Source: Campylobacter showae CSUNSWCD
GTDB lineage: Bacteria > Campylobacterota > Campylobacteria > Campylobacterales > Campylobacteraceae
DNA: 64,000 nucleotides
NCBI RefSeq assembly: GCF_000313615.1
Contig: NZ_AMZQ01000001.1
Span: 248,001-312,000, forward strand
Direction of reading: 5' to 3'
Under the pieces are notes generated by a model. The model was not told the origin of the DNA. It saw nothing but the letters and a program-made list of their open reading frames with translations, and ran no database searches. The position numbers and the translations under genes are program-made. This document shows, one piece after another, positions 33,386 through 41,209 of the stretch (positions are counted from its first letter, which is position 1; each line of letters opens with the position of its first letter).

Positions 33386-34030
33386 ATGCAAAACATCGGG
33401 CTAATCGCAAAACAGGGCTACAAATACGTTTTTGCTTTAGGGCTTTTGTTTTTGCTTGCGCTGATTTTGGGCGCGTGTCAAATTTTATTTTTCGCGCTTT
33501 TTGTGCTCTGCGTTTTTTGGTTTAGAAACCCAGAGCGAGCGCTAGGCAGTGACGATGCTTATGCCGTGCTTAGCCCGATCGACGGCAAGATAAAAAGCAT
33601 AGATAAAATTTACTATTTTGATACTCAGTGTGTAGCCATAACTATCCGTAAGGGCGTGTTTGACGCAGGTGCGCTCAGAGCTCCTTGCGATATGGAGCTT
33701 TTGGAAGTCAGGCAGAGGCACGGCCTGTTTTTGTGCAACGCTATGGAAGCTTCTAAAAATTTAAACGAGCGAGCATTGTTTGTATGTAAAAATTTAGACA
33801 ACAAATTTGCGATCCGCGTCATCGCCGGACCTCTTAGTAAGGGTATTTCTTTTGAAAATTTTAGCCGTCTAAAAGCGGGCAGGAGATTTGGCTTTTTAAG
33901 TAGCGGCGAGGTGGTTTTGATACTGCCTGCAAATGCAAGAATAAGCGTTAGCGTTGGCGAAAAAGTGGCAAGCGCAGGCATTTTAGGTTTTTTTAGCTAC
34001 GAGGAAAAAGATGCAAGACAATCAGCATAA
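33386..34030 (+). CDS. Phosphatidylserine decarboxylase-related membrane protein
   Basis: A 214-residue protein with two hydrophobic helices at residues 15-47 and a Psd-like body: FRNPER near 50, SPIDGKIKSIDKI near 68, and a C-terminal NARISVSVGEKVASAGILGFF strand. In pyruvoyl decarboxylases the Gly-Ser-Thr motif precedes VILLF or VDLYLP; here the aligned segment reads FLSSGEVVLILP. The cleaved Ser appears replaced by Glu, or the motif is shifted to Ser-Ser. It may therefore not self-process. It lies directly before pssA, with which it overlaps, as in the C. jejuni cluster. A lipid role is inferred only from context and fold. Confidence 0.7.
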   Translation: MQNIGLIAKQGYKYVFALGLLFLLALILGACQILFFALFVLCVFWFRNPERALGSDDAYAVLSPIDGKIKSIDKIYYFDTQCVAITIRKGVFDAGALRAPCDMELLEVRQRHGLFLCNAMEASKNLNERALFVCKNLDNKFAIRVIAGPLSKGISFENFSRLKAGRRFGFLSSGEVVLILPANARISVSVGEKVASAGILGFFSYEEKDARQSA

Positions 34031-34790
34031 ACTTCAGTTAATGTATATTTTACCGAATTTATTCACGGCGGCTTCGGCATTTTTAGGTATCATCAGTATC
34101 ATTGCCTCCGTTCGTGGCTACATCGCGGTCGGCGCAGGGCTGACCCAGGAGGCTAACGGCTATTTTTTCAAGGCTATTATTTACATCGTTTTGTCTCTTT
34201 TTTTGGACGGACTTGACGGACGAGTGGCGAGACTAACTAAAACTACGTCCAAATTTGGCGTGGAGTTTGACAGTCTTGCCGATATTATAGCTTTTGGCGT
34301 CGCGCCTGCGATGCTTTTTTATTTTACGGTCGGGCATAGCTTTGGACGTTTGGGTTCGCTAGTCGCTGCACTGTTTGTAGTTTTTGGTGCTATTAGACTT
34401 GCTCGGTTTAACGTAATGACCGGCACCTACGAGCCGTCTGTTTTTATCGGCCTTCCGATACCTACGGCTGCCATAGTGTCGGCATTTTGGGTTGGGTTGA
34501 GCTTGGAATACGACTTCACCAGGAGCGCCGAGTGGTTTTTACTATTTTTGCAAATTTTGCTTTCCGTTTTGATGGTGAGCAATATCCGCTACCCTAGCTT
34601 TAAAAAAATAGATCTAAAAAAAGCCCATTTTTTACGCATATTAGTCGGTCTTACGGTTGCGTTTTCGGCTATTTATGTTTGCCCCATCGAAGCGGTTACG
34701 ACTTTAATGAGCGTTTATGTTTCTTACGGTATAATCCGCTATATTTTTATGAGATGTAAAAACAAAAAAATCCAAAAGGAGAGCGAATGA
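34011..34790 (+). CDS. pssA: CDP-diacylglycerol-serine O-phosphatidyltransferase
   Basis: A 259-residue CDP-alcohol phosphatidyltransferase with the signature DGLDGRVARLTKTTSKFGVEF...SLAD near residues 70-95 (DGxxAR...G...D...D) and about seven hydrophobic helices. It makes phosphatidylserine from CDP-DAG and serine in the inner membrane. ATG 34011 overlaps the end of the Psd-like gene; AGGAAAAAG lies upstream. Its stop TGA at 34788-34790 overlaps the start of a leucine-rich leader peptide, and a TATAAT box within its 3' end probably serves leuA. Confidence 0.94.
   Translation: MQDNQHKLQLMYILPNLFTAASAFLGIISIIASVRGYIAVGAGLTQEANGYFFKAIIYIVLSLFLDGLDGRVARLTKTTSKFGVEFDSLADIIAFGVAPAMLFYFTVGHSFGRLGSLVAALFVVFGAIRLARFNVMTGTYEPSVFIGLPIPTAAIVSAFWVGLSLEYDFTRSAEWFLLFLQILLSVLMVSNIRYPSFKKIDLKKAHFLRILVGLTVAFSAIYVCPIEAVTTLMSVYVSYGIIRYIFMRCKNKKIQKESE
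34730..34735 (+). promoter_or_regulatory. Sigma70 -10 box for the leuA leader transcript, inside pssA
   Basis: A perfect TATAAT within the 3' end of pssA. Transcription would begin about 34742, giving a 45-base 5' UTR before the leucine leader peptide and about 175 bases before leuA. Confidence 0.5.
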
Positions 34791-34843
34791 ACGGCAACGT
34801 CAAATTTAACGCATTTTTCTCTCTACTTTTGCTGCTGCGTTAG
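34787..34843 (+). CDS. Leucine-rich leader peptide upstream of leuA
   Basis: An 18-codon frame, MNGNVKFNAFFSLLLLLR, ending with five consecutive Leu codons (CTA CTT TTG CTG CTG) before Arg and TAG. The start has an excellent ribosome binding site, AAAAGGAG at 34774-34781 with five-base spacing, and overlaps the pssA stop as ATGA. It lies 74 bases before leuA, the first enzyme of leucine synthesis, which is the hallmark of a ribosome-stalling attenuator. A hairpin GCTGC-GTTAG-GCAGC (34834-34848) overlaps the last Leu codons and the stop. No U-run follows, so the exact mechanism is unclear. Confidence 0.72.
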   Translation: MNGNVKFNAFFSLLLLLR

Positions 34844-34917
34844 GCAGCGACTCTTTCACACCCTAATAATCAAATTTATACCATACAAACTAAAAACTCC
34901 AAAAAAAAGGATAAAAA

Positions 34918-36435
34918 ATGAACAATGATAAAATTATAATATTTGATACGACTTTACGAGACGGCGAGCAAAGCCCTGGCGCCTCGATGAATACCGAGGA
35001 GAAAATCCGCATCGCACGCCAGCTAGAGCGCCTAAACGTGGACGTCATGGAGGTCGGTTTTGCTGCGGCTAGTAGGGGTGATTTTGACGCGATACATCAG
35101 ATTGCCAAGCAAGCCTCAAACGCCTCTATCTGTTCGCTCGCCCGCGCCGTGGACGGCGATATAAAGGCTGCGGGAGAGGCTATCGCTCCGGCAAAAAATA
35201 GGCGCATCCACACCTTTATCGCCACAAGCCCGATCCATATGGAGTTTAAGCTAAAAATGTCTCCCGACGAAGTGATCAGACGCGCAGTAAAAGCCGTGGA
35301 ATACGCTAAAACCTTCTGCGAGGATGTTGAGTTTAGCTGCGAGGACGCATGCAGGAGCGAGATGAGCTTTTTAAAAGAAATTTGCGACGCCGCTATAAAC
35401 GCCGGAGCAAAAACGATCAACATCCCTGACACCGTGGGGTATCTATATCCCGAGGAGATTACCGCTCGCATAGGAGAAATGGTTAAATTTATAAACGGTC
35501 GCGCAGTCGTCTCCGTGCATAATCACAACGACCTAGGCCTAGCTACGGCAAACTCGCTAGCCGCGATAAAAGCGGGCGCAAGGCAGGTTGAGTGTACGCT
35601 AAATGGTATAGGCGAGCGTGCGGGAAATGCCGCGCTTGAAGAGATCGTTATGGCGATAAAGACGCGCAGCGACGTATTCGCGCCGCTTTATACGGACATA
35701 GTTTATAAAGAAATTTATCCTAGCTCGCGCCTGCTAGCGGGTATCATCGGTATCGAGCCGCAGCCAAACAAAGCCATCGTCGGCAAAAACGCCTTCGCTC
35801 ACGAAAGCGGCATCCACCAAGACGGCGTGTTAAAACATAAAGAAACCTATGAAATCATCAGCGCCGAGAGTATTGGGCTGGACAAAAACTCGCTGATACT
35901 AGGCAAGCACTCGGGTCGCCACGCCTTTAAAGATAAGCTAATAAGCCTTGGTTTTGAGCTAGAAGATAGCGCGCTAAACGAGGCGTTTGAGAAATTTAAG
36001 GCGCTTGCCGATAAGAAAAAAGAGATCTTTGACGATGATTTACGCGCGTTAGTTACGAACGAGATCATCAAGATCCCTGAGACTTTCGAGTTCTTGACGC
36101 TTACGCAAAGTAGCTGCAACAAAGGCCTAAGCAGCGCGGCGATCACGCTTCGTCACGCCGACGAGATCAAGAGCGACGCGGCGCTAGGTAACGGTACGGT
36201 GGACGCGATATTTAAGGTCATCGACCGTCTAAGCGGCATAAACGGCGTACTAAAAGACTATAAGGTAAACGCCGTTTCGCAGGGCAAGGATGCGCTGGCA
36301 AACGTCGTCGTCAAGGTCGAATTTGACGGCAAGACCATCATCGGTCACGGACTTGATATCGACACGATGACGGCGAGCGCTAGAGCGTATATAGGTGCGT
36401 TAAACAGCTACGTAAAAATCACTGCGACAAAGTAA
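34918..36435 (+). CDS. leuA: 2-isopropylmalate synthase
   Basis: A 505-residue enzyme: [17 protein letters not shown] at the N-terminus, metal-binding HNHNDLGLA near 200, [14 protein letters not shown] near 232, and a C-terminal regulatory domain after residue 390 that ends with the [21 protein letters not shown] segment of the Leu-binding fold. It condenses acetyl-CoA and 2-oxoisovalerate. Besides probable feedback control through that domain, the leucine leader upstream suggests control by translation of leucine codons. AAAAGGATAAAAAATG gives the start. No other leu genes follow in the window. Confidence 0.95.
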
Positions 36436-36641
36436 AATTTGAGCGGTTTGACCGCACCGTTTGGCAAATTTAAGGCTCGGATTCGGGCCTTAAATTTTAA
36501 AATTTGACCTTTAAATTTGGCTGTAAATTTACCATAGTTTAAGGCAAATAAAAATCAAAACTCAAATTTAAACCTCCTCGCATTTACCGACGAGCCGTTA
36601 AGTTTTGCTATAATCAAACCAAATTTTTCAAAGGAGAAAAT

Positions 36642-37340
36642 ATGAAAAAAATCGCATTTTTGTTGATGATTATCGGGGCGTTTGCGTTTGCTAAAAGCGA
36701 GGAAGCGCCGCAAAAATCAGAGCCAAAGCAGCTTGAGATGGTGCTTATCTTAGATAAATCAGGCTCGATGAGCGGGCTTGAGAGCGATACTATCGGCGGC
36801 TTTAACTCGATGATCGACAAGCAAAAAGAAGCGGGCGTGGACGCCAAGGTAACGACGGTGCTTTTTGATACGAATTTTAAGACGCTGCATGATAGGGTGG
36901 ATATCAAAAAGGTCGAGAAGCTAACGAGTAAGGACTATGTCGCAGGTGGCAACACCGCGCTACTAGACGCTGTGGGCGATACGATAAACAAAATCTCAAA
37001 AGTCGAGGATATCTACGCCAAAAACAGAGCCGTACTTTTCGTGATCATCACCGACGGGCAGGAGAACTCGAGCAGGGAGTACTCAAAGGCGCAGATCAAA
37101 AAGATGATAAGCGATAAGCAGGAAAAATACGACTGGGAGTTTATATTTTTGGGAGCAAACATCGACGCGGTTAGCGAAGCGCAAAGCCTAGGCATAAAGG
37201 GCACGAACGCTGTGAAATACAAAAACAGCAGCGAAGGCGTGCAGAAAAACTTTGAGGCCGCTGCAGAGATGTCCAAAGATATGGCGATGGATAAAAAATC
37301 AAGCTCGAAGTGGCGCGAAAAGGTGCTTGAGGATAAGTAA
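36642..37340 (+). CDS. Exported von Willebrand factor A domain protein
   Basis: A 232-residue protein with signal peptide MKKIAFLLMIIGAFAFA and one VWA domain (residues 30-215). The MIDAS residues are present: DKSGSMSG near 41, Thr in GGNTALLDAVG near 104, and Asp in ITDGQENSS near 136. VWA domains bind metal and protein partners; a periplasmic or secreted location is predicted. CAAAGGAGAA lies before the ATG, and the 206 bases upstream hold only AAATTT-rich sequence. A hairpin terminator follows. It has no visible functional partner. Confidence 0.85.
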   Translation: MKKIAFLLMIIGAFAFAKSEEAPQKSEPKQLEMVLILDKSGSMSGLESDTIGGFNSMIDKQKEAGVDAKVTTVLFDTNFKTLHDRVDIKKVEKLTSKDYVAGGNTALLDAVGDTINKISKVEDIYAKNRAVLFVIITDGQENSSREYSKAQIKKMISDKQEKYDWEFIFLGANIDAVSEAQSLGIKGTNAVKYKNSSEGVQKNFEAAAEMSKDMAMDKKSSSKWREKVLEDK

Positions 37341-37351
37341 AATTTGAGTTG

Positions 37352-37375
37352 AAGTACGGCTTTTCGCCGTGCTTT
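37352..37375 (+). terminator. Hairpin terminator after the VWA gene
   Basis: AAGTACGGC and GCCGTGCTT pair across the loop TTTTC, with one G-T wobble, 12 bases after the stop codon. The U-run is short (CTTTGG), so strength is uncertain. Confidence 0.5.
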
Positions 37376-37524
37376 GGTTAAATTTGCGGTTTTTTTAACC
37401 CGCGAGTTATAGAGCAGGACGAAGTAGGGCGTTAAATTTGACGAGGCGAGTTGTTTTTGCTTTTGTCAAATTTAACAAAACTGCTTTGATGCTGTAAATA
37501 TACAAGAATTATTAAAAATTATTC

Positions 37525-37560
37525 GGGCGACTTCGCGATAAATTTTTCGCCGTATCGCCC
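37525..37560 (-). terminator. Possible terminator of the pflB transcript
   Basis: GGGCGA (37525-37530) pairs with TCGCCC (37555-37560), with further partial pairing inside. On the minus strand it is followed by GAATAATTTTT. It lies 8 bases past the pflB stop. Confidence 0.4.
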
Positions 37561-37568
37561 AAATAAAA

Positions 37569-39965
37569 CTACTTTTTAAGTTTCTCGTAATCAATCATAA
37601 AATCCACGAATTTGCTTTTAAAATTTGGATCTTTTATTAGTCCGTATTGTATCGTTGCGGCTTCGATGTTATCGATCTCTTGATATAGGTGCCCCAGTGC
37701 CACGCGGCTTTCCATCGCGTTTGGATCGGTGAGCTTTGATAGCTCTAAAAGCGCGGTGGCGTTTTGTGGGTGGTTTGAGCCGATGGCGGCCACGGCAGCT
37801 AGAAACAGCGTACCTGCGTCGTTTATCTTAAATTCGTCGATTATGCGGTTGTAGATCTGATAGCTCTCCTCAAAATCGTTCGTAAAAATGTCGATGTAGG
37901 CTAGCGTCTGGAGCAAGTCGGCGTTATTAGCGTCTTGTTTTAGCAGCGCCTTTATCTTCTCGCGTTCGTAGTTTAGCAGGCCCGAGATTTGCAAAAGCTT
38001 GATGTATTGCTCTTTGATGATGTTTGCGCCGTGGTAAAACGCAGCGTCGTTTAGCCGTTTGTCGTGGAAGTAAATTTGTATCTGCTCGACGTATTTTTTG
38101 ATGCCCTCATCCTTGTAGTTTGCGATAAAATCAAGAATATTTGCTACTATATCTTCGGGTAGCTTAGCCTTTAAAATTTGCGTCTTTTTGGCAAACTCCT
38201 CACTCTTGTCGGTCATCTTTGCGATTATCGCGTCAAAGGCCAAATTTAGCGCAGTCTCTTCCTTTTCTTGCTCTAGCCAGCGCATTAAAGCACCGCTATT
38301 GTTTGCGATGAGCGCCATTAGAGCTTGGCTTACGGGTGCGTCTTTTGAGCTTGCGTCGTGGTCGAGATTTTCAGAAATTTCTTGTAGTAGTTTGGCGTTA
38401 TCTACGGCATTTATGTCGTTTGCGATAGCGCCTAGCACGCCTGCTAGATGATTTGTAGGGTCTAGGTGGTAGCTCATGATAAAGTGCTTTGCCGCCATGC
38501 TAAAGTTGCCTAGCTGCGCGTAGCTAAGCGCTAGGTCGTAGTGTAAAACCGAGTGCTCGGGATAGAGCGAGATGAGCGAGGCAAACTGTGCGTTGGCCTG
38601 CTTTAGCTTGTAGTTTAGGGCGTTTGCGATGGCTGAGGATAGCTCTAAATTTACCTTTGAGAGCGCGCCGCTAGCGTTTAGGTAGTTGCCCGCCGCGCTT
38701 GCGTCGTCCAAAAACAGGCTCACTCCGCCCTTTCTTATGTAGTTTATCGTTTGGTTCGGGTCAAAAACCTTATAAGGCGCGAAGTAAAATAGCGTCTCGT
38801 AGCGTTTGGTTTTATCAAAAAACAGGTCGTTTCTAAAGTGCGCCTGAGCTAAATTTACGTCAAAAAGCTCTGGTTTTAGGATCGTTTTGATCGGGAAATT
38901 CGCATTTAAAAATAACGGATCTTCGTGAAAAACAGCTTTTATTTCATTGGCCGCAGCTTCAAAATTGCCGTCTTTTAGGTTGATGATGGCTATCATCGAG
39001 TTTATTTTATTTGAGTCGCCGCCTTTGTTGAGTGCTAAATTTAGCCTATTTCTGGCCTTTTCATATTGCCCGAGCCTTGCGTAAAGCATACCAAGAGCTA
39101 GATCTGCGTCAAATTCTTTTTGGGCTTCTAGCTTTTTTATCGCTTCGGCGTCGTCGCCGATAAAGCTTAAAATTTTAGCCGCGAGGTAGTCGTAGCGGTC
39201 TTTGTAGTAGCCGTTTTCAGCGTGCGATAGGGCCGCTAGAGCCTCGACGTATTGGCCTTTATAGTAGTTTATGAGCGCGTAGTAGTAGTTGTATAGCGGG
39301 GAGTCTGCTTCTTTATATAAAAACGAGCTTGCGAGATTTATGTAGTAGTTAAAATTTTGCTCGTTTTTTAGCTCCAGTGAGCTAACTGCGGCGTTTATGG
39401 CGCTAACGGCGACGTTTTCGTTATTGTCGATAGCTTTTTTAAAGCTTTTTAGCGCGTCTTCAAATTTGCCCTGTCTCATCTGTGAAACGCCGAGATTATA
39501 GTTTGAGAGGCTTTGGTTGTAAACTGCGATGTTTTCGTAGATTTTCAGAGCCTCAAATTTATTGCCCTTTTCGTAGAGTAAATTTGCCTTAGCGATCATA
39601 TCATCGATCTTGGAGCTACCGAATTTTTGCGACTCGTAGTGCTCTTCGATATCTTTTACGATCTGTTTTTCGTCTATCGGCGGCTTTTTCTCGCCTCTAA
39701 AAACGAAAAACAAAACTACTGCCAAGATGATGACGAGCGCGCCCGCCGATCCTGCGATGATAAAAAGCTTTTTCTTGCTTTTTTTATCGTCTTCTTTTGC
39801 ATCTGCCGGCTGTTCCGGGGTTACCGGCTCTAGTTCATCAAGCGAAACTAGATCGTCGCCTTCATTGCTTTCTTGCTCTTCTTGTTGCGGCGCTTTGTCG
39901 CTTAGCTCGGTATTGGCTTCAGACTCTTCGAGGATTACTACGTTTTCATCGTCGTTTTGCGCCAC
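37569..39965 (-). CDS. pflB: Flagellar disk protein PflB-like, TPR repeat protein
   Basis: A 798-residue protein: an acidic cytoplasmic N-terminus (residues 1-65), one transmembrane helix (KKLFIIAGSAGALVIILAVVLFFVF, about 67-90) and a long run of TPR-like helices (for example YNLGVSQMRQGKFEDALKSFKKAI near 155 and VLHYDLALSYAQLGNFSMAAKHF near 480). The layout and its place directly after serS match C. jejuni Cj0390 (PflB), a proximal/medial disk component of the flagellar motor scaffold needed for stator placement. The GTG start at 39965 overlaps the serS stop. Identity rests on synteny plus architecture rather than a signature motif. Confidence 0.8.
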   Translation of the reverse strand: MAQNDDENVVILEESEANTELSDKAPQQEEQESNEGDDLVSLDELEPVTPEQPADAKEDDKKSKKKLFIIAGSAGALVIILAVVLFFVFRGEKKPPIDEKQIVKDIEEHYESQKFGSSKIDDMIAKANLLYEKGNKFEALKIYENIAVYNQSLSNYNLGVSQMRQGKFEDALKSFKKAIDNNENVAVSAINAAVSSLELKNEQNFNYYINLASSFLYKEADSPLYNYYYALINYYKGQYVEALAALSHAENGYYKDRYDYLAAKILSFIGDDAEAIKKLEAQKEFDADLALGMLYARLGQYEKARNRLNLALNKGGDSNKINSMIAIINLKDGNFEAAANEIKAVFHEDPLFLNANFPIKTILKPELFDVNLAQAHFRNDLFFDKTKRYETLFYFAPYKVFDPNQTINYIRKGGVSLFLDDASAAGNYLNASGALSKVNLELSSAIANALNYKLKQANAQFASLISLYPEHSVLHYDLALSYAQLGNFSMAAKHFIMSYHLDPTNHLAGVLGAIANDINAVDNAKLLQEISENLDHDASSKDAPVSQALMALIANNSGALMRWLEQEKEETALNLAFDAIIAKMTDKSEEFAKKTQILKAKLPEDIVANILDFIANYKDEGIKKYVEQIQIYFHDKRLNDAAFYHGANIIKEQYIKLLQISGLLNYEREKIKALLKQDANNADLLQTLAYIDIFTNDFEESYQIYNRIIDEFKINDAGTLFLAAVAAIGSNHPQNATALLELSKLTDPNAMESRVALGHLYQEIDNIEAATIQYGLIKDPNFKSKFVDFMIDYEKLKK

Positions 39966-41209
39966 TACATATACCTTTTAAGAACTTCTGGAATTTCGAT
40001 AGTGCCGTCAGCTTTTTGGTAGTTTTCCATTATCGCTATTAGCGTCCTACCAACAGCCAAGCTCGAGCCATTTAGCGTGTTTGCAAGTGTATTTTTCTTG
40101 CCGTCTTTAAAACGAATTTTTGCGCGTCTTGCTTGAAAATCACGAGTATTAGAGATAGAGCTGATCTCTCTATATTTGCCTTGACCTGGTAGCCAAACCT
40201 CAAGATCTATCGTCTTTGCTGCGCTAAAGCCTAGATCGCCACTGCAAAGTAGCATATGGCGGTGAGGCAGCCCAAGGCTAGTTAGTAGGTCGCTCGCGCA
40301 CGCTACCATTTCAGCAAGCACGCCCTCGCTTTGATCAGGCGTTGTGATACTTACAAGCTCGACCTTTTCAAACTGGTGCTGGCGTATCATGCCCCTCGTG
40401 TCACGTCCTGCTGAGCCTGCCTCTTGGCGGAAGCATGCTGAGTAGCAAGTCATCTTTATAGGCAGCTCGCTGGCATCGATGATGGTGTCGTTGTATAAAT
40501 TTGTCACAGGCACTTCGCTAGTTGGGATAAGATAGAGGTCCTCGTCACGCACTTTATAAAGATCCTCTTCAAATTTAGGCAGCTGACCTGTGCCAAAAAG
40601 CGTGTTTGAGCTTACTAGATAAGGGACGTTTACAAGCTCAAAGCCGCGTGCGCTGTTAAAGTCGATCATGTAATTAACAAGCGCTCTACTAAGCCTTGCT
40701 CCTATGCCACGAAGGACGGTAAAGCGAGATCCTGAGAGCTTTGCGCCCCTTTCAAAGTCAAGCCAGCCAAGGCTCTCGCCAAGCTCCCAGTGCTCTTTTG
40801 GTGTGAAGTCAAATTTAGTTGGCTCAAGCACCGTTTTTAGGCAGACGTTATCGTCCTCGTCCTTGCCAAATGGCACGTCATCGTCGGTGATATTTGGCAC
40901 GTTAAATGAAATTTGCTCAAGCTTTTCTTCGCATTTTTTAACGATCTCGTCAGCCTCAGCAAGGGCAGTTTTGTTTAAATTTAGCTCACTCTTAAGCTCA
41001 CTCACGTCCTCGCCAGCTCTTGCTTTTACGCCTAGCTCCTTGCTCTTTGCATTTTGGATAGCTTGGAAATTTTCAAGCTCTTTGCGTTTTTGCTTTAGCT
41101 CGTTAAAAGTCTGCAAAAGCTCGTCTAGCAAGCTAGCTTTAACATTTTTGCCCTCTAGTTTTTTTACGAATTCATCGTAGTTTGTCTCAAGTAGTTTTAA
41201 ATTTATCAT
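39965..41209 (-). CDS. serS: Seryl-tRNA synthetase
   Basis: A 414-residue class II synthetase: an N-terminal coiled-coil arm (residues 20-100), [10 protein letters not shown] near 233, motif 2 [26 protein letters not shown] near 265 and motif 3 [18 protein letters not shown] near 383. It charges tRNA-Ser; a tRNA-Ser gene lies at 52015. Third positions are less GC-rich than in neighbouring pflB and aroK, suggesting that the segment serS to trpS came by recombination. GGAGAG precedes the ATG. Confidence 0.96.

Follow-up and report, generated by a model that had tools for sequence, protein, structure and literature searches.

We find that a leucine leader peptide is encoded directly before leuA in the window, the 64,000-nucleotide stretch of Campylobacter showae CSUNSWCD DNA analysed here, and that it carries its own ribosome binding site. 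On balance, we lean towards the view that this peptide, LeuL, attenuates leuA in response to leucine by way of the translating ribosome, and that the stop is non-canonical and possibly Rho-dependent; both Leu-tRNA sensing and Rho are inferred from sequence. Textbook amino-acid attenuation requires an intrinsic terminator, and the other residues of the leader are irrelevant to it. Across the bacterial order, few leuA leaders have a recognisable terminator, and the peptide is kept over a 19-residue stretch in six families. This terminator scarcity and peptide conservation together make a testable case of Rho-dependent attenuation by tRNA charging and of an undescribed arrest-like peptide.

Features of the leuL-leuA region, in positions of the window
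Feature	Position	Strand	Basis or detail
pssA (presumed), gene 5' of leuL; its end contains the leader Shine-Dalgarno and the candidate promoter	34011-34790	+	ORF
TATAAT, candidate -10 box, inside the pssA end	34730-34735	+	sequence
leuL Shine-Dalgarno AAGGAGAG (also read as AAAAGGAGAG)	34776-34783	+	GGAG at 34778-34781
leuL leader ORF MNGNVKFNAFFSLLLLLR, 18 codons, stop TAG	34787-34843	+	read from sequence
Five successive Leu codons CTA CTT TTG CTG CTG, control codons	34823-34837	+	sequence
Hairpin GCTGC-GTTAG-GCAGC, last Leu codons and stop	34834-34848	+	sequence, comparison
G-free, C-containing stretch, candidate Rho-loading region (putative)	34850-34908	+	59 nt without G
leuA Shine-Dalgarno region AGGAT, A-run before	34908-34912	+	sequence
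leuA (presumed), proposed regulated gene	34918-36435	+	ORF

The leader frame reads ATGAACGGC...CTACTTTTGCTGCTGCGTTAG. Its ATG (34787-34789) overlaps the TGA (34788-34790) of the upstream gene, which we take to be pssA, and a 74-nt spacer separates its stop from the start of the downstream gene, presumably leuA for 2-isopropylmalate synthase, whose protein is 98% identical to its counterpart in Campylobacter showae CC57C. Direct reading thus agrees with an earlier first-pass annotation of this DNA, which had described a near-perfect ribosome binding site, a start within the pssA stop, an end 74 nt before leuA and five Leu codons in the frame. The C-terminus, LLLLLR, has the several leucines by which a LeuL is recognised, and AAGGAG-type Shine-Dalgarno sequences stand ahead of many leuA leaders across relatives. 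Among ORFs of 8-45 codons with at least five Leu in their last 8 residues, of which the 64 kb hold five on both strands, leuL is the sole one to bear a Shine-Dalgarno, and it is therefore above chance. A TATAAT box at 34730, also noted earlier, is present, but as a sign of a promoter it is weak by itself because the same bases encode Gly-Ile-Ile of pssA. This box is kept in the window and four close relatives; many genus members of the C. concisus type have instead a TATAAT or ATAAT about 15 nt closer to the Shine-Dalgarno.

The leader is retained widely among relatives, as the first-pass annotation would predict. Of 48 genus genomes searched, 47 gave a leuA match, and one of these genes (G037) is decayed, leaving 46 upstream regions; a Leu-rich-ending leader precedes intact leuA in 45 of these 46, the exception being G033. 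In the four nearest genomes the leuL peptide is identical, and the DNA differs by synonymous changes and a TAG/TAA stop swap only. In a wider set gathered by leuA similarity alone, a leader was picked in 51 of 77 loci, which makes leaders frequent without being universal; the picking rule combined Shine-Dalgarno, start codon and Leu count, and some of the 26 loci without a leader were perhaps missed. The G033 locus (L120) and that of Campylobacter gastrosuis (L008) are both without a leader, with leuA directly after pssA and no TATAAT at the place it occupies in the window. At the decayed G037 locus (L127, around 1148-1240 of the reverse complement), a Shine-Dalgarno and a short ORF ending FPLLLLK remain before leuA, and the stop-codon hairpin described below is still able to form there with one G-U pair.

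Leucine codon usage in these leaders is biased. Among distinct leaders from 211 loci, TTA and TTG make up 23 of 651 Leu codons in the last nine positions and 99 of 129 at earlier ones, while across the window's open frames of 250 codons or more, on either strand, they account for 484 of 1668. In the Leu run of the window, 3 of the 5 codons (CTA, CTG, CTG) belong to the set CUA/CUC/CUG given as rare for C. jejuni in the available portion of PMC3847290.

The kind of leader found here is already known, from a 2013 prediction and a 2025 translation signal in C. jejuni. Porcelli et al. 2013 (PMC3847290), in the portion available to us, predicted LeuL in Epsilonproteobacteria and described a 28-residue LeuL before leuABCD of C. 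jejuni with five rare Leu codons (CUA, CUC, CUG), together with orthologs of 20-35 residues in most Epsilonproteobacteria having leucine genes. The same text reports that C. jejuni leuL RNAs end soon after the stop codon and proposes attenuation by stalling (PMC3847290). A 2025 Ribo-seq census reports, in its accessible part, initiation-profiling peaks for C. jejuni leuL, with leuL detection generally limited to C. jejuni or related Campylobacter (PMC11955535); in the portions at hand of these two papers we found no test of the LeuL mechanism. The window leader shares with Campylobacterota LeuL a short, RBS-bearing ORF directly before leuA and a Leu-run end, and differs in length (18 residues against 28 in C. 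jejuni and 20-35 in orthologs, by the same partial source), a matter of size range and not an essential trait. Its stop-codon hairpin and C-over-G spacer are absent from presumed C. jejuni-type loci (genus g2, L228-L237), where spacers are U-rich, not C-rich. The first-pass account of a Leu leader stands, but it missed that LeuL had already been described, as well as the genus-wide hairpin and a peptide core in relatives. What is new is the absence of a U-run terminator in the window and its rarity outside the genus, the G-poor spacer, the genus hairpin and the amino-acid-selected core in six families. A literature search by titles and abstract starts found neither a conserved LeuL core nor Rho at leuL beyond the two LeuL papers, though either may have been noticed earlier.

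The hairpin that the first-pass annotation placed over the last Leu codons and the stop proved to be a genus-wide element. In the window, arms GCTGC (34834-34838) and GCAGC (34844-34848) enclose the loop GTTAG (34839-34843), which holds the TAG stop; since GCTGCTGC is repeated, the arms could also pair in another register. Folding of the 41-nt hairpin segment by itself yields 8 pairs with an energy of -11.5 kcal/mol. Every one of the 45 genus genomes with a leader, representing 20 distinct segments, has a stem at its last Leu codons and stop. If the stem is required to have 5 or more pairs, including 3 G-C pairs, and to touch the stop codon, it is present in 20 of 21 distinct regions of the genus as against 2 of 118 outside (shuffles 0.6 and 0.2); in the genus exception, L118, the stem lies immediately before the stop codon. 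When the 20 distinct genus segments are aligned, 96.7% of cells pair. Of the six pairs, one changes on both sides (A-U in 12 and G-C in 8 of 20 rows), four are invariant and one varies one-sidedly; covariation is modest support by itself, since it concerns one pair shared by related rows. The two cases outside the genus are both in Helicobacteraceae: L079, a MAG, has a hairpin nearly the same as that of the window, and in L066 the hairpin is followed by the T-run ATTTTTTAAA. Convergence, transfer or a binning error may account for them.

We then consider how transcription would be stopped. Consistent with the first-pass remark that no U-run terminator is seen, a + strand scan of 33800-40000 found no terminator-like site from the leader to leuA (34787-34960). 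Outside the genus, 3 of 111 distinct regions contain such a site, defined loosely as a hairpin and, after it, 5 or more T in 8; within the genus, 24 of 37 do. Requiring at least 6 T of 8 leaves 1 outside and 21 inside, and 7 T leaves none and 2; about 1 of 148 shuffled regions passes. Convergent gaps served as a positive control, and 12 of 33 pass; either the rule therefore overlooks many real ends, or canonical terminators are few in these genomes, which may use U-poor ones. The in-genus matches are mostly the stop-codon hairpin with a AATTTCTCTTTA-like tail, chiefly in C. concisus types. Because 24 of 37 genus regions pass, those members of the genus may have a weak intrinsic terminator, but the window fails the test. 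The whole 189-nt leader region does not stand out from its shuffles in folding (z -0.9; 38 of 200 shuffles do as well), and no antiterminator hairpin is apparent in its MFE or centroid fold. The leuL attenuator of E. coli and Salmonella also has consecutive Leu codons before leuA, and Rfam has a Leu leader family. A control-codon run is thus common to both systems, but the terminator/antiterminator pair is not seen in the window. At the gathering score, Rfam gives no leader family in the window, its sole match being one tRNA elsewhere.

These data bear on a simple intrinsic attenuator, in which the hairpin at the Leu codons and stop would itself be a U-poor terminator, opened by the stalled ribosome with neither a separate antiterminator nor Rho. 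The presence of the stem in every leader-bearing genus genome, and its position over the stop in nearly all distinct genus regions, argue for this alternative, and the 24 of 37 regions that satisfy the hairpin-plus-T test favour it for C. concisus types. Moreover, the stem of the window belongs to the stronger class (-11.5 kcal/mol, compared with -8.5 in the C. concisus type), and the Helicobacter hairpin of L066 continues into ATTTTTTAAA. However, the tail in the window, GACTCTTTCACACC, fails even the loose test, and L066 and L079 are the only loci outside the genus with a hairpin of this kind, though Leu leaders are widespread in the order. We regard this explanation as possible, with perhaps a one-in-four standing.

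The leuL-leuA spacer is poor in G while its C content is not reduced, a pattern shared with Rho-binding sites. According to the accessible parts of two reports (PMC12121999, PMC7815308), rut sites are marked by YC dimers, a high C:G ratio and lack of structure. Without its last 12 nt, the window spacer has 4.8% G, 27.4% C and 12.9% YC; distinct spacers have 4.8%, 17.6% and 8.4%, as against 13.3%, 14.4% and 6.8% in 78 control 5' regions, none of which has as little G plus as much C as the window spacer. More C than G is present in 134 of 147 distinct spacers and in 38 of the 78 controls, and Mann-Whitney tests of spacers against controls give p values of 8e-16 (G), 6e-4 (C) and 4e-3 (YC dimers), which are too small because the sequences are related. 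Among loci with 35-120 nt spacers, C exceeds G in 119 of 119 from eight lineages, repeats kept in, and in a smaller control this holds for 98% of 100 core leaders, 71% of 55 coreless leaders and 49% of 53 control gaps. The signal is not unique: the best 78-nt C-rich/G-poor segment (34823-34900) is equalled by 524 of 127846 such segments of the 64 kb, which form 30 equally extreme clusters, the leuL one included, with 4 on the + strand.

A rho gene is present (TIGR00767, 674.7 bits). Together with the spacer composition, it makes the earlier suggestion of an unusual, for example Rho-dependent, stop more plausible, although the use of Rho itself is our reading of the sequence. We therefore favour Rho as the putative stop mechanism across the order, with the U-poor hairpin as a fair rival within the genus; an unstructured spacer acting without Rho may also be an explanation. 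Several points weigh against the reading of LeuL as an attenuator with a Rho-type stop: a ribosome on the Leu codons would shield the first part of the spacer only, and to this are added the 30 clusters, the 24 of 37 terminator-like genus sites, the 12 of 33 convergent gaps, the U-rich presumed C. jejuni-type spacers and the restriction of leaders to 51 of 77 loci.

Rho-linked regulation by a short uORF has precedents, among them tnaC. The available portions of PMC12121999 and PMC7815308 describe speFL, mdtU and toiL as short uORFs whose ribosome status decides Rho termination, and MdtU as conserved mainly toward its C-terminal end. The systems named here sense ornithine/polyamines, free tryptophan or ribosome-targeting antibiotics; in the window, the signal would instead be charged Leu-tRNA, with Rho as the presumed effector.

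The attenuator reading with a Rho-type stop rests on the 45 of 46 leaders, the codon bias, the stop-codon hairpin, the G-poor spacer, the rho gene and the few terminators outside the genus, as well as on the C. jejuni leuL RNA that ends soon after the stop codon in the portion at hand of PMC3847290. The Leu leader with the attenuation logic of the first-pass annotation is supported, and leucine is likely to be sensed through codon stalling, with Leu-tRNA as the presumed signal. When Leu-tRNA is plentiful, the ribosome would pass the five Leu codons, terminate at TAG and depart. Upon its release, the hairpin at the Leu codons and stop would form, the G-free RNA behind it would be left bare, and transcription would end before or early in leuA, most likely via Rho; the hairpin perhaps marks or protects the RNA 3' end. 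When Leu-tRNA is short, the ribosome would stall on the Leu codons, keep the hairpin open and cover the start of the bare stretch. Staying near RNA polymerase, the stalled ribosome would allow leuA to be transcribed. In related families, a conserved peptide core that precedes these codons probably aids in holding the ribosome; the lineage of the window is without this core and has a plain codon run with the hairpin.

The first-pass annotation also raised control of leuA translation through alternative pairing, in which LeuL stalling would free the leuA ribosome-binding site. The MFE fold does pair the Leu codons with the leader Shine-Dalgarno, and the GGA of the leuA Shine-Dalgarno lies in a 3-pair stem. 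However, in 100 distinct core-bearing leaders, a set to which the window's own leader does not belong, pairing of the Leu tail with the leuA Shine-Dalgarno averages -4.1 kcal/mol versus -4.6 for random synonymous CTN codons (mean percentile 0.58), and with the leader Shine-Dalgarno -9.5 versus -9.0 kcal/mol (percentile 0.46). The Leu codons thus pair with either site no better than random CTN codons, and the G-poor spacer before leuA offers little scope for pairing. Translational control of leuA, less likely because both pairings lie within the synonymous null, was accordingly left unsupported, and we consider it improbable.

In relatives, the peptide itself is conserved. A search of the order with a composite leader as query found a LeuL core, G..K..K.LPKIEIKN.LL, in 93 of 398 genomes (E <2e-3, one such match per genome) from six families (f1, f4, f10, f18, f20, f22). 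Of these loci 90 were fetched, and all 90 have a leuA signature downstream on the same strand. When the whole phylum was searched, 71 of 397 genomes matched at E up to 0.05; every one belongs to the same order, and one match is weak (E 0.018). Core scores of leuA-upstream regions (243 loci, some genomes repeated) fall into two groups, 88 below 30 and 155 at 60 or above with none between, and the antisense strand reaches a maximum of 24. The core is not universal, as in the set chosen by leuA similarity alone it occurs in 21 of 77 loci and is absent from 56. In 53 distinct core windows, tallied from the 90 loci with no motif filter, though the loci were found with a query already containing the core residues, the N-terminal half has G 51, K 50, K 52, L 52, P 51 and K 53 of 53, and the C-terminal half I 52, E 52, I 47, K 46, N 52, L 52 and L 53. 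Among 82 distinct core DNAs, third codon positions differ in 45% of pairwise comparisons, first in 17% and second in 10%, indicating selection on the peptide; RNA-level constraint as the main cause of the core was ruled out on the same figures. Conservation drops past the first two Leu behind the core N, where some core leaders have two Leu only (NTLLS, NYLLR); the regular expression behind the codon-position and fall-off tallies, unlike the 53-window tally, itself requires K, L, I, N and LL. With three core-bearing leaders as queries, Pfam and NCBIfam returned no family, only one chance Pfam match (E 0.2).

Within the genus, 34 of 45 leaders have the core, and the leader of the window and its clade are without it. 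The trait of an arrest peptide, conserved nascent-chain residues near the stall codons, is thus not found in the window leader. In a leuA tree whose bootstrap is not settled, the 11 coreless genus leaders form a nine-row clade including the window and two single rows, both long branches, so that three changes are needed. A trade-off between Leu number and the core was considered and dropped, as coreless leaders were chosen partly by Leu count and the comparison is biased. The natural absences of the core would serve as controls in testing for an arrest-like peptide.

A tentative further possibility, to which we give less than an even chance, is that LeuL of Campylobacterota is a nascent-chain-assisted leucine sensor in which arrest driven by the core blocks Rho and no intrinsic terminator is opened. 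The core G..K..K.LPKIEIKN would occupy the exit tunnel as the ribosome reaches the first two Leu codons, and low leucine or Leu-tRNA would lead to arrest. The lineage of the window would then show how peptide-assisted arrest gave way to plain stalling at codons together with a hairpin. Amino-acid-level selection on the core in six families would also suit a small functional peptide acting in trans, without codon-based regulation. Such a role is very unlikely: conservation fades after the first two Leu behind the core, the window clade is without the core yet keeps its Leu codons, those codons are biased, and all 90 fetched core copies of the 93 lie upstream of leuA.

Other leader types occur in the order as well. 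Sulfurovum-like leaders (L018, L025, L026, L028, L029, L030, L060-L062) have a different segment before the Leu run, TIF.Q..TLLLLSL or KII..DSTLLLL. In six loci (L013, L239, L240, L243, L246 and L247), the leader before leuA has another core, particular to that lineage and close to KIYIFIYKLSLLNLL, which suggests that the leader sequence may matter in that group too.
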